Assembly (NCBI GenBank): GCA_037952775.1
Contig: JBANAY010000004.1
Span: forward strand, 14,446,001-14,510,000
Direction of reading: 5' to 3'
Length of the DNA stretch: 64,000 bases
Source: Clonostachys chloroleuca
Taxonomy: Eukaryota > Ascomycota > Sordariomycetes > Hypocreales > Bionectriaceae
Shown: piece by piece, positions 13,000 to 51,286 of the stretch
How positions within the stretch are numbered: position 1 is the stretch's first letter
How the letters are laid out: each line of letters opens with the position of its first letter
The notes under the pieces: generated by a model
Told to the model about the DNA's origin: nothing
The model's input: only the letters and a program-made list of their open reading frames with translations
Database searches by the model: none
Made by a program: the position numbers and the translations under genes

Positions 13000-13617
13000 T
13001 TACTCCCAGTCACGCTCCTCGAACTCTTCGAGATCGCGCTTGCCACGGCCGCCTCGACCACCTCGACCTCCCTGGTTACCCCAGGTCCGGCGGTCATCAC
13101 CAGGTCTGTTACCACGCGCTTCGAGGTCACGCTTGCCACGGCCACCACGGCCACCACGTCCACCCTGGTTGCCCCAGCTCTTGCGATCATCACCGGGTCT
13201 GTTGCCACGCTCCTCAAGATCACGCTTGCTACGGCCGCCTCGACCACCTCGACCTCCCTGATTACCCCAGGTCCGGCGGTCATCACCGGGTCTGTTGCCG
13301 CGCTCTTCGAGATCACGCTTACCACGGCCGCCACGGCCGCCCCGACCGCCCTGGTGACCCCAGCTCTTGCGGTCATCGCCGGGTCGGTTACCACGCTCCT
13401 CAAGATCACGCTTACCACGGCCGCCGCGACCGCCCTGGTTGCCCCAGCTCTTGCGGTCATCGCCGGGTCTGTTGCCGCGGACGAGAAGGTCTTCGGTAGG
13501 CTCGGATCGCTCTACGAGTGAGAGCTCATCGTTCTGGGTGACTTCAAGGGCGAGTCCCTTGGTGGCGAGGCCGAGCCAGAGGAGACCGGCGAGTCCGAGG
13601 TTCTTGGTAGCGACCAT
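13000..13617 (-). CDS. Secreted repeat precursor with five KR (Kex2-type) sites; candidate processed peptide or RiPP precursor
   Basis: Single exon, 205 residues from the ATG at 13617. An in-frame ATG upstream at 13731 would add 38 hydrophobic residues; the inner one gives a normal signal peptide (VATKN then GLAGLLWLGLA). After a short pro-region (to about residue 46) come five copies of a unit: R-G-N-R-P-G-D-D-R-(K/R)-(S/T)-W-G-(N/H)-Q-G-G, then an RGG-rich run, then KR. KR lies at 69-70, 100-101, 131-132, 162-163 and 193-194, an exact 31-residue period; the first unit is three residues shorter. Each KR is followed by DLEE or DLEA. The tail is DLEEFEERDWE. There is no Cys and no Tyr. Dibasic-separated repeats behind a signal peptide are the mark of fungal Kex2-processed precursors (pheromone, dikaritin/ustiloxin, epichloecyclin types). 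No UstYa-like (DUF3328, HxxHC) gene is seen within the window, so cyclisation is not supported. It might instead act as an uncut RGG-rich secreted protein. Confidence 0.75.
   Translation of the reverse strand: MVATKNLGLAGLLWLGLATKGLALEVTQNDELSLVERSEPTEDLLVRGNRPGDDRKSWGNQGGRGGRGKRDLEERGNRPGDDRKSWGHQGGRGGRGGRGKRDLEERGNRPGDDRRTWGNQGGRGGRGGRSKRDLEERGNRPGDDRKSWGNQGGRGGRGGRGKRDLEARGNRPGDDRRTWGNQGGRGGRGGRGKRDLEEFEERDWE
13001..13408 (-). repeat. In-frame 93-bp tandem repeats coding the KR-terminated units
   Basis: Four full 93-bp (31-codon) units plus the tail lie here. They encode DLEE(E/A)RGNRPGDDR...GKR-type units, preceded by one shorter unit just upstream. Units alternate between KSWGN/KSWGH and RTWGN cores, and one has GRSKR instead of GRGKR. 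Confidence 0.7.
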
Positions 13618-13805
13618 TTTGAATGTGAAGGATGGATATAAATGGAAAAATTGAGTAATGAAGTATAGTTGGCTTGAAGTTGGTGTGAAAGATGAAAGGA
13701 AAAAAAAAGTTGATAGGAAAGAAAAACTCAAGGAAAAGGTCTGAAGACCTGCTTCTAGTGTAGTTGTGTTGTTGGTTGGGTTTGTTGATGAATGGAAAGC
13801 TCAAC

Positions 13806-13827: not shown

Positions 13828-13834
13828 TTAAATA
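13828..13834 (-). promoter_or_regulatory. TATA-like box (TATTTAA) for the repeat precursor
   Basis: Minus-strand TATTTAA about 210 bp before the ATG at 13617. The spacing fits a 5' leader of roughly 150-180 nt. Confidence 0.4.
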
Positions 13835-47454: not shown

Positions 47455-50400
47455 ATGAGCCACGGACCAGCACCCCCAGATCCAACCACCGATCTCCGGT
47501 GGGGAGATTTCGTTGGGCGTACGATATCCTCTCCCCTCTCCACCGAGTTGGACACATTCTAACATCCCCTGCTCGTGGGCTAGCAATTCATGAAATATTT
47601 GCCGAAAACGCCCGGAAATTTCCAGAAAGGGAATGTGTCATAGAGACCCGGAGCTCGCAGTCCCCCGCGCGCTCTTTCAGCTACCGTCAGATCAACCAGA
47701 GTGCCAATCAGCTGGCCCACCACTTCCTGAGCCATGGATGTCAAGTTGGGGATGTCGTCATGATATATGCTTTCCGAGGGTGAGTTCGTCTCTGCCCTCG
47801 TTCTCAAGGCCTGGCCTTTTCATCCTGACCATTCCCTACCTAATGTAGCGTTGAGCTGGTCGTGGCCTACATGGGCGCGCTCAAGGCCGGCGCGACGGTC
47901 AGTGTCATTGACCCCCAGTACCCTCCAGAGCGCCAAAAGGTCATCTTGGATGTTGGCAAGCCCAAGTTCCTCGTCTGTATCCAAAAGGCCAACGACAACT
48001 TCGGCCCCCCATCCGATTTGGTCATGGACTATGTCTCTAGCAGCTTGAATCTCAAGTCCAGCGTCCCTGCCCTCGCCCTATCCAATGACGGGCAGCTCAC
48101 TGGCGGCATTGTCAACGGCAGCGACTGTCTTGCTGGCTTTGGCCACGAAGATCCTGTCAATATCGTCGTCGGGCCAGATTCTATCCCGACACTAAGTTAT
48201 ACCAGTGGCACGCAAGGAAGACCCAAGGGCGTTCAAGGACGACACTTCTCGCTGACCCATTTCTTTCCCTGGATGGCCGACAGGTTTGGCCTCTCAGCCG
48301 ACGACAGGTTTACTATGCTCTCCGGTATTGCGCATGACCCAATCCAGGTAAGTGAGCCATCATCAACCTTCAACACAAGCCGGCCTCAGATGCTAATTAC
48401 ATCTTTCCGACAAGCGTGACATCTTCACTCCGCTGTTCCTGGGTGCAAAGATAGTTTGTCCCCCGGCTGAAGCAATTGCGTACGAACTTCTCGCCGAATG
48501 GATGAAAGAAAACTCCGTCACCGTTACCCATCTGACGCCTGCCATGGGTCAGATCCTTGTTGGAGGCGCTACGGCGCGCATTCCTTCTCTTCGCAACGCA
48601 TTCTTCGTGGGTGACATCTTGACCAAAAAGGACACCAGCAAGCTGCGCGAGCTCGCTCCCAATACTACAGTCATCAATCTTTACGGCTCGACGGAAACCC
48701 AGCGTGCAGTGTCTTTCTTCGAGATCCCCAGCAAGACCCTGCAGCCCGAGTTTCTCGAGGACCTGCCTGACATCATTCCGGTCGGCGAAGGAATGCAAAA
48801 CGTCCAGGTTTTGGTGGTTGACCGCGAGGACAAGTCCCGGCTTTGTGAGATCGGAGAGCAGGGTGAGATATTCATCAGGAGTTGCGGACTTTCCGAAGGC
48901 TATTTAGGAGACGACGAGACCACGGTGGAACTGAACCGATCCAAGTTTCTGACCAATTGGTTTGTGGAACCCGCTGTATGGAGAGAAAAGTATGGCGACG
49001 CCGGCATCTCCAGTGTAAACAAGGGGCCGCGTGACCGTCTTTATCGAACGGGTGATCTTGGTCGACGTCGCCCAGAGGGAGGTGTTGAGTGCACAGGTCG
49101 CATCGACTCGCAAGTCAAAATTCGCGGTTTCCGAATCGAGCTGGGCGAGATCGACGCCAATCTCTCACGCCATCCGTATGTCCGTGAAAACGTCACCCTT
49201 GTCCGAAGAGACAAGAATGAGGAGCATACTCTCGTGACGTACTTTGTCCCCGAGACCAAGCGTTGGTTCGAAAGTCTCGACCATCAGGAAGACGGCCACC
49301 ATGAGATGAGTCTAGACGAGTCGCTTGGCGAAATGATTCGACGTTTCCGGTCACTTTCCGAGGACTGCAAGAAGTTCCTCGCGGCTAAAATCCCGTCATA
49401 CGCTGTTCCGAGCCTCTTCATCCCGCTGGCTCGAATGCCCTTGAGTAAGTAGCAGCCATTTTTGCCCCCCTTTAGCCTCTCGCTTCTAATGGGAAGCAAT
49501 AACATGTGGCTGTTTAACTAACATTTGTGTGCTTGCAGATCCCAACGGCAAAGTGGACAAACCCGCCCTCCCCTTCCCAGACGAGACCGATCTGGCGGCC
49601 CTGGCCAAGAGGAGGGCCTCCTCTCTGTCTGTCAACATGACGGAGACACAGACTCGATTGGCGTCGATCTGGGCGTCTGTGCTTCCCAACACATCTGCTC
49701 GGCTGCTTAGGCCCTCGTCCAACTTTTTCGACGAGGGCGGCCACTCCATCCTGGCCCAGCAGATGTTTTTCAAGGTCACCAAAGAATGGAAGCACATTGA
49801 CTTACCAATCAGAGTCCTCTTCCAGTCGCAGACCCTCGAGGCGCTTGCTGCCGAGATTGACCGTGCCCAAGATCCTATTGGTCTGCGTCTTGACGCCATG
49901 CCTCTTCCTGGGGACGGGCATGCTGAGGACGAGGCCTACGCCGCCGACGCACGAGAGCTCGTGAACCAGCTCCCCCAGTCCATGCCCGCCGCAGCAGCGG
50001 ATTGGGATTACTCTTCCCCGCCGACCGTTCTCCTAACCGGCGCGACTGGCTTCCTTGGCTCGTACATTGTCCACGAGCTGCTCGAAGGTCCCACCAAAGC
50101 AAAGGTCATCGCCCTCGTAAGAGCCAAGGATGCGCAGGCGGGTCTAGCGCGTCTTGAGGCCGTCATCAAGGCTTACGGCCTCTGGTCGCCATCCTGGCTG
50201 TCGTCATCCAGGCTCGAGGTAATCGTGGGTGACATTGGCAAGCCGCAGCTCGGTCTCGCCAGGGACGTCTTGGAGCGTCTCTGCAACGAGGTCGATGTCG
50301 TGATCCACAACGGAGCCCAGGTCAACTGGATGCTGCCCTACTCCAGTCTCCGTGCGGCCAACGTGCTCAGTACGTTGGCCTGCGTCCAGCTCTGTGCCGT

Positions 50401-51286
50401 GGGCAAGCCCAAGCGGTTCGCATTCGTCAGCTCGACCTCTACTCTGGATACCGATTTCTACGTTAACCTGTCCAACAAGGATGGAAAGGCAGTCGTGGAG
50501 GCCGACGATTTGGAGGGAAGCAGAAAAGGGCTTGCTACTGGTTACGGCCAGTCCAAGTGGGCAAGCGAATATCTGGTGCGTGAGGCCGGGCGACGGGGTC
50601 TGGTTGGCGCCGTCATCCGCCCTGGATACATCACCGGTGACTCAAGATCTGGAATCTCTGTCACAGATGACTTCTTGGTCCGTCTATGGAAGGGATCTCT
50701 GCAGGTGGGTGGGCGCCCGGATATCAGCAACACAGTCAACGCTGTCCCGGTAACGCGGGTCAGCCGCATCGTGGTTGCCGCCGCTTTCCATCTCTCCGGT
50801 GCTACTAAGAAGTCGCTCGCCGTGGCGCAGGTCACTGGCCACCCACGTGTGACTATGAACGACTGGATTGGCGCCCTCGAAGTTTATGGATACAACGTAC
50901 CCCTCATCCCTTACTCTGAGTGGTCCTCCAAGGTGAAGAACTACGTTAATGATGCCGCGGAGAAGGAGGAGCATGCCCTTCTGCCGCTATTCCACTTCGT
51001 CGTGGGCGACTTGCCCGGGAACTCTATCGCACCAGAGTTAGACGACGCTAATGCGCTAGGGGCTTTGGGTATCTATGAGGAGAAGCAAGAGGCACAAGCT
51101 GATGCCCAAGCCTCGAGCAATGTTAATATTGATGTATTGGGAACTTACCTGGCGTACCTTGTTACGATCGGGTTCCTTCCTGCCCCATCAGGGGAGAATG
51201 GCGGCCAGCCACTGCCAAAGCTAGATGATGCTTTGTTACAAGCTTTGGCTAGTAGCCAATTCGGTGGTAGATCTGCGAGATCATAG
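47455..51286 (+). CDS. Lys2-like A-T-R reductase (alpha-aminoadipate reductase paralogue) lacking the N-terminal domain
   Basis: Five exons (47455-47518, 47584-47779, 47849-48347, 48415-49444, 49539-51286) give 1178 residues; Lys2 enzymes have about 1400. Order: adenylation domain from 'DLRWGDFVG' and IHEIFAENARKFPERE, with YTSGTQGRPKG, 'MLSGIAHDPIQ', 'VTHLTPAMGQ', FVGDILTKKD and 'YRTGDLGR'; a carrier domain with FFDEGGHSILA (Ser is the phosphopantetheine site); then a reductase domain with TGATGFLGSYI and catalytic 'GYGQSKW' (YxxxK). Close likeness to Lys2 throughout suggests 2-aminoadipate or a similar amino acid as substrate, reduced to the aldehyde with NADPH. The condensation-like N-terminal domain of about 230 residues found in yeast Lys2 is missing. 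That argues for a paralogue with a specialised role, perhaps in secondary metabolism, rather than the lysine enzyme. It needs a phosphopantetheinyl transferase, not present here. Confidence 0.92.

Follow-up and report, generated by a model that had tools for sequence, protein, structure and literature searches.

The gene at positions 13000 to 13617 on the minus strand of the window (the whole 64,000-nucleotide stretch of Clonostachys chloroleuca DNA analyzed here) encodes, at a probability that we put near 0.6, a KEX2-type secreted repeat precursor that belongs to a dispersed Clonostachys family and acts by the mechanism proposed below. As read from its sequence, the precursor is a KEX2-processed repeat protein (KEP) under the published criteria, with peptide release predicted: its five units, with KR sites 31 residues apart, provide at least three repeats of at least eight residues between KR, RR, KK, or RK pairs (criteria taken from the publications and applied directly to the sequence). 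Judged from their sequences, the family members have related signals/leaders and acidic spacers bounded by Arg, and their basic cores diverge. The KEP class itself is known; what appears new is that precursors with differing cores have a leader in common, that their spacers are acidic, and that an upstream element recurs among them. More tentatively, we propose that dozens of such dispersed genes form an arsenal that would extend across the genus, in which leader and acidic spacers would be conserved and basic cores freely replaced. Many members would fall in one regulon marked by Smaug/Vts1-type hairpins of the 5' UTR, with the window gene as a diverged member.

Reading frame, repeat anatomy, and neighborhood of the window gene

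Open reading frame, translation, and unit analysis gave a single-exon coding sequence of 205 amino acids plus stop (13000..13617, minus strand, as are all features of the gene below), the start codon being the sole ATG 5' of the repeats within the open frame. Residues 1 to 23 (MVATKNLGLAGLLWLGLATKGLA; 13549..13617) form a signal-peptide-like start that is common to the paralogues; by eye it has a basic beginning, a hydrophobic stretch, and a G-L-A end with putative cleavage after A23, and an AF2 model places a helix at residues 5 to 19. An acidic pro-segment (residues 24 to 47; 13477..13548) leads into unit 1 (residues 48 to 75; 13393..13476; KR at 13408-13413), unit 2 (residues 76 to 106; 13300..13392; KR at 13315-13320), unit 3 (residues 107 to 137; 13207..13299; KR at 13222-13227), unit 4 (residues 138 to 168; 13114..13206; KR at 13129-13134), and unit 5 (residues 169 to 194; 13036..13113; KR at 13036-13041), and the protein closes with an acidic tail, DLEEFEERDWE (residues 195 to 205; 13003..13035). 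The lysines of the five KR sites are residues 69, 100, 131, 162, and 193, so that the exact 31-residue period claimed by the sequence-only reading holds from KR to KR; core starts are spaced 28, 31, 31, and 31, the first interval being shorter because unit 1 is without one RGG. All five units carry GNRPGDDR(K/R)(S/T)WG(N/H)QGG, and in all five DL directly follows KR. Tandem Repeats Finder scored the array at 557 with a 93-nt period and at 648 with a 186-nt period. Beyond what the sequence-only reading noted, units 3 and 5 contain an internal RR (DDRRTW; residues 114-115 and 176-177, at 13273-13278 and 13087-13092), which might be a second candidate Kex2 site inside the putative peptide. The repeat precursor first noticed from the sequence is thus borne out by its signal-like start, five near-identical units, invariant core, and single-exon minus-strand frame.

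Database searches placed the protein in no known group. The only Pfam candidate, PF17040, scored 11.4 bits, below the cut-off of 25, and was rejected; a PDB sequence search gave no match; and Rfam over 1.5 kb around the gene returned a single match far below threshold. A protein database search in which 7,990 candidates were scored gave one match, P0001 of C. rosea; the window protein itself was absent from the matches among those candidates and may be unannotated or not in the database. Nine window ORFs were scanned and comprised Zn2Cys6 regulators, an NTPase, an SDR, an acetyltransferase, and NmrA, AMP-binding, and NRPS-like reductase proteins; with no obvious modifying partner among the nine, the neighbors were rejected as a biosynthetic cluster. 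Separately, AMP-binding, phosphopantetheine, and Male-sterility reductase domains at 48502-51283 (plus strand) probably mark an NRPS-like carboxylate reductase gene.

A dispersed family with related leaders and mostly differing cores

Searching the genome with the first 40 residues of the window protein (E<=10) led to 15 places, each of them a precursor of the family type or a broken copy; at C3:28.364 and C3:9.315, acidic spacers are present and a core repeat is not visible. After additional queries, 29 family ORFs were parsed, the window gene and 28 paralogues (C4:13.921 is cut by the end of the sequence, and C3:21.756, which has a frame change, is possibly broken), and more than 10 additional family loci were seen, comprising a near-copy, other precursors, or degenerate ones. 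Five degenerate copies were left out of the parsing: C4:9.269 (C4:9269730), C3:4.008 (C3:4008255), C3:31.113 (C3:31113035), C3:1.418 (C3:1418098), and C3:21.499 (C3:21498782). Each keeps a leader but is interrupted by stops or a shift of frame; such copies suggest birth and death of members, an intron being possible in some.

Compared with region-preserving shuffles, 19 of the 28 paralogue leaders scored above all 500. Five were not clearly above them (8 to 302 of 500 shuffles; C3:24.603, C4:8.245, C3:6.790, C4:13.921, and C3:22.682) and were grouped by plan; for four of these, all but C4:13.921, a strict upstream palindrome also guided the grouping. Even outside the first 40 residues, similarity to the window protein stayed at z>=3 for 16 of the 28 paralogues, which we attribute to common spacers and Gly/Arg tails; judged by eye, the cores mostly differ between members. 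Single members carry, for instance, six copies of GKGTKKINNAINIANAGANVVGAFHGAKR, seven of a KISAKGVAKGVGKVAKGALRLLFR-type core, 11 of a GGGGLKPPIVIPGSTGDFGKTKRPHKR-type core, or six of AKPPPNVPRPPPNRPTGVGYTTGGRGGRGRR, the last having its Gly/Arg end in common with the window core. Two very similar precursors 1.24 Mb apart (C3:13.331 Mb and C3:14.568 Mb), each with both of the palindromes described below, are likely a recent duplication that included the promoter. At C3:29721219-29723900 lies an 894-residue frame of mostly RDFDDELYE-like acidic repeats with a different start and without evident basic cores.

Outside this genome, profile search A3 gave 17 matches, 16 from Clonostachys or Bionectria and one JGI protein; profile search A4 gave 64, from Clonostachys/Bionectria, agarics (Hebeloma, Crepidotus, Agrocybe, Pleurotus, and Tephrocybe), and metagenome proteins; 33 sequences from these matches were inspected. 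Among open-licence papers we found none on this Clonostachys precursor family. The suggestion that the gene might represent a new peptide class survives in part: it is a Kex2-type repeat precursor unlike the dikaritins, and it is not isolated, being one member of a leader-sharing family.

CNGGN palindromes upstream of the family

Words around AGACCAGC were overrepresented upstream of the family genes, where the coding strand carries palindromes with a CNGGN loop and varying 4-bp arms (AGAG-CTGGT-CTCT, ATTG-CYGGY-CAAT, GTTG-CTGGT-CAAC, and GAAG-CNGGN-CTTC). Within 250 nt before 28 ATGs (28 members, C3:7.937 having been left out for too little upstream DNA), strict CNGGN hairpins numbered 21 in sense and 1 in antisense and occurred in 13 of the 28 members, the strict element being absent upstream in the other 15. 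Dinucleotide shuffles of the same regions gave a mean of 0.12 and a maximum of 3; CNGGN ranked first among 64 loop classes, the runner-up class having 2; and 22.7 kb of sense coding sequence contained none. Two palindromes recur across the genome: the 13-mer AGAGACCAGCTCT has 23 copies in 59.4 Mb against 2 of the reversed pattern, with 15 of the 23 preceding a precursor of the family type (leader similarity being weak in some), 4 an ORF of another kind that looks secreted, and 4 neither, and ATTGCYGGYCAAT has 19 copies against 1 reversed, 11 of them at family loci (12 of the 19 places were examined). Palindromes with no precursor ORF nearby in the sequence inspected lie at C3:14472139-14472203 and C4:5642626 and could reflect lost genes or other targets.

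Covariation between the arms was scored at 0.676 versus 0.185, a value reached by 0 of 500 shuffles; the counts of cells paired and of cells changed on both sides also lay above all 500. Pairs changed on both sides were not in excess (3 versus 2.3, reached by 165 of 500 shuffles), nor were further pair types (4 versus 4.3, reached by 448 of 500). Since the covariation rows were picked for complete stems, a count of GCNGGNC with no demand for a stem is the fairer test. In the family upstream regions it found 26 such cores in sense orientation against 1 in antisense; the arms were fully complementary in 21 of the 26 and paired at 2 of 3 positions in the remaining five. Over the window as a whole, GCNGGNC is a frequent motif, at 6.2 per 7 kb of strand.

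The window gene has one such element, GAAG-CAGGT-CTTC (13743..13755, minus strand; -138 from the ATG), a candidate Smaug/Vts1 site with a CNGGN loop and complementary stem in the presumed 5' UTR, and a TATA-like box, TATTTAA (13828..13834, minus strand), about 80 nt before it. Judged from eight other strict matches in the 128 kb of window strand, chance would yield roughly 0.016 per 250 nt. The TAGAAGCNGGNCTTC stem of this element shows no genome-wide enrichment (6 versus 4; two of the six TAGAAG places were examined), so that the case for the window's own copy depends on its position, the distance to the TATA-like box, and a resemblance to TAGAAG-CTGGT-CTCCTA at the paralogue C1:5.888. In 13 of 15 members a TATA-like box lies 65 to 100 nt before the element, compared with 0 to 1 of 15 in twelve other windows (the pattern was widened to TATTTAA after that box had been seen in the window gene). 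By the usual distance from TATA to transcription start, 65 to 100 nt past such a box is where a transcribed leader is expected; on this spacing, the palindromes are probably within the transcript.

Yeast Vts1 binds short hairpins with a CNGGN(0-1) loop, known as the Smaug recognition element (PMC2573929, PMC9893680), and the genome encodes a Vts1 SAM orthologue (C4:30194-30370; best E of 1.2e-21 to PDB Vts1) that retains the RLHKY and LGARRK segments, to which, by reading, the seven RNA-contact residues named in PMC9893680 appear to map. Control of the family by Vts1 we consider probable, its extension to the window gene slightly less than an even bet. The placement differs from the known cases: yeast Vts1 targets are enriched for the element in coding sequence (PMC2573929), and a review describes Smaug elements for 3' UTRs (PMC9893680), whereas those here would lie in the 5' UTR. 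The hairpins are also weak, with energies near zero and a mean stem probability of 0.16 over 21 elements folded in 80 nt; the window hairpin came to -0.2 kcal/mol, with a stem probability of 0.000 in isolated RNA, where a competing hairpin was favored. This weakness would suit palindromes that a transcription factor binds as DNA, or that were left behind by promoter duplication, with Vts1 unrelated to the family. So would the paired elements 46 to 63 bp apart in nine members and the apparent common ancestry of the paralogue promoters, most of which carry TCAAA ahead of the ATG. Such an origin is nonetheless unlikely, in that orientation is sense in 21 of the 22 strict palindromes and 26 of the 27 GCNGGNC cores, the arms vary in sequence yet remain complementary, and the elements lie downstream of TATA-like boxes at the distance given above.

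Charge plan, core edges, and the case for processing

Among the 14 of 29 members parsed for charge, cores carried a net +3.0 to +8.0 and the remainder was acidic in all 14, a result to be read with the facts that these members were picked by hand-made patterns, that cores were set to end at basic residues (which favors the sign), and that only 2 of the cores of C4:5.985 were caught. Cores of the window gene had a net +5.8 and the rest of its precursor -18. Across the 29 members, Arg was followed by Asp or Glu in 290 of 737 cases (expected, 165), and charge blocks reached z>=2 in 18 of 29 in a 15-residue test, one member scoring -2.4; the window gene itself showed no excess of Arg before acid (6 versus 7.1 expected) and no significant blockiness in that test (z of -0.8). 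Amphipathic helical cores were significant in 3 of 14 members, the window core not being one (76 of 1,000 shuffles were equally good).

Over the ten pairs of units of the window gene, pN was 0.052 against a pS of 0.475, giving a ratio of 0.11; all five KR sites are encoded by AAG-CGY. Differences of 48% at synonymous against 5% at nonsynonymous sites imply that the peptide is under selection and that the repeats are old copies held alike at the protein level; recent DNA duplication as their source is ruled out by the same values. Selection of this kind between units fits a peptide product. Values for C3:28.048 (out of register) and C3:12.773 (three units, no synonymous change) were discarded.

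A comparison for the core edges comes from C1:5.888 Mb, a paralogue with the RPGDD-WG core type of the window gene and 93% identity to P0001 of C. rosea. After the core it has TR in three of four units and RR in one, and P0001 likewise has TR in place of KR; before the core it has RTRR in three of four units and RTRK in one. As judged from these sequences, KR as such is unconserved between the two genes, though the edges of the core stay basic in both. Homologues without KR had been named in advance as evidence against processing, and this paralogue supplies part of that evidence while keeping basic edges.

The observation bears on a second alternative, that of an uncut, RGG-rich, disordered protein of the cell surface or matrix, its KR pairs being part of a basic repeat and not processing sites. 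The AF2 model (built on a two-sequence alignment) had a mean pLDDT of 45 and no structure past the first 36 residues, and that of the helical relative A7 was unusable (pLDDT 38); the predicted disorder makes a folded surface protein less likely and is compatible with a disordered one. The sequence-only reading had offered either a secreted peptide or an RGG-rich surface protein, and it is the secreted-type, Kex2-type plan that finds support. Besides TR in C1:5.888 and P0001, the uncut protein could account for the many family cores bordered by monobasic ER or AR in place of KR. We regard it as improbable, more so than the DNA-site origin of the palindromes: the window's KR codons are invariant at roughly 48% synonymous divergence, RTRR or RTRK occupies the other core edge in C1:5.888, C3:20.426 is a plain KR-ended 27-residue repeat, and basic cores alternate with an acidic remainder in the members parsed.

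Proposed mechanism and significance

Returning to the KEX2-type secreted precursor, we propose that the protein would enter the secretory pathway and that Kex2 would cut after each KR, a step that we rate as highly probable; the genome has a single match to the kexin P-domain (P_proprotein; E of 2.7e-17; C3:10031004). The acidic DLEER spacer would neutralize the basic core (net about +6) in transit and would then be cut or trimmed away. We infer this removal because ER, AR, or RR borders the core in other members; a second cut at ER, argued from those relatives, stands at even odds. The products released outside the cell would be four or five linear peptides rich in Arg and Gly, each with a single Trp, and they would probably serve against competing microbes, either as cationic weapons or by binding to surfaces. 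Clonostachys is a mycoparasite genus, and we put forward an antimicrobial or competition role as a tentative proposal. Many of the family mRNAs would be controlled post-transcriptionally by a Vts1/Smaug protein binding the CNGGN hairpins of the 5' UTR, which would allow the arsenal to be held down or switched together. A pheromone-like peptide signaling to the fungus itself is very unlikely, for although a signal-repeat-KR plan is that of alpha-pheromone precursors (PMC6339444), no Ste13 XA/XP motif follows KR (DL does, in 5 of 5 units), and 28 paralogues with mostly other basic cores are unlike one conserved signal.

One leader type serves dozens of precursors in one genome, and new peptides appear to have been swapped into a fixed delivery cassette, which would make the family a natural library of fungal cationic peptides. 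Leader plus acidic spacer offers a search rule where dibasic sites are few. If the palindromes are Vts1 sites, an RNA-binding protein would control a whole secreted peptide arsenal.

Comparison with known systems

Like the KEPs described in PMC6339444 and PMC7329392, the window gene has a signal-like start and five repeats between KR sites; KEPs are highly diverse, at about five per strain in Ascomycota (PMC6339444, PMC7329392), and 78% of them are without UstYa nearby (PMC7329392), as is the window gene. It differs in having a leader common to many paralogues with mostly different cores, along with acidic Arg-bounded spacers, monobasic borders in several relatives, and CNGGN palindromes ahead of many family genes. 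The main texts of those two papers contain none of the terms Clonostachys, Bionectria, and acidic. As to the palindromes, the likeness to Smaug/Vts1 elements lies in the CNGGN hairpin shape and in the SAM orthologue encoded.

The dikaritins (ustiloxin, phomopsin, asperipin, and epichloecyclin) have a signal, repeats, and Kex2 sites in common with the window gene, and dikaritin identity was ruled out by the absence of Tyr from the core and of UstYa from the vicinity. The claim that the core differs from theirs is upheld by the whole precursor, whose 205 residues include neither Tyr nor Cys. As the sequence-only reading had also stated, no UstYa-like gene is nearby: a genome search for PF11807 gave nine matches at four places, the nearest on the contig of the window gene lying about 3.2 Mb from the precursor, and among family loci the closest approach was about 74 kb (C3:27.339).

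Agaricomycete KEP products were apparently cut after a single Arg in P. pastoris (PMC9769878). In the agaric proteins P0047, P0055, P0058, and P0062, basic cores that look helix-like by eye alternate with acidic R-bounded spacers, as in several family members, whereas the window core is Gly/Arg-rich and not helix-like; these four and P0074 show a similar basic/acidic alternation, which may reflect shared origin or convergence. In frog-skin prepro-dermaseptins and conotoxin precursors, the signal and the acidic pro-region are conserved and the mature peptides are hypervariable. Diversification of the Clonostachys family may be likened to that of these frog-skin or cone-snail precursors, by analogy and with no sequence relation implied, the family being fungal and its precursors carrying multiple repeat copies each.
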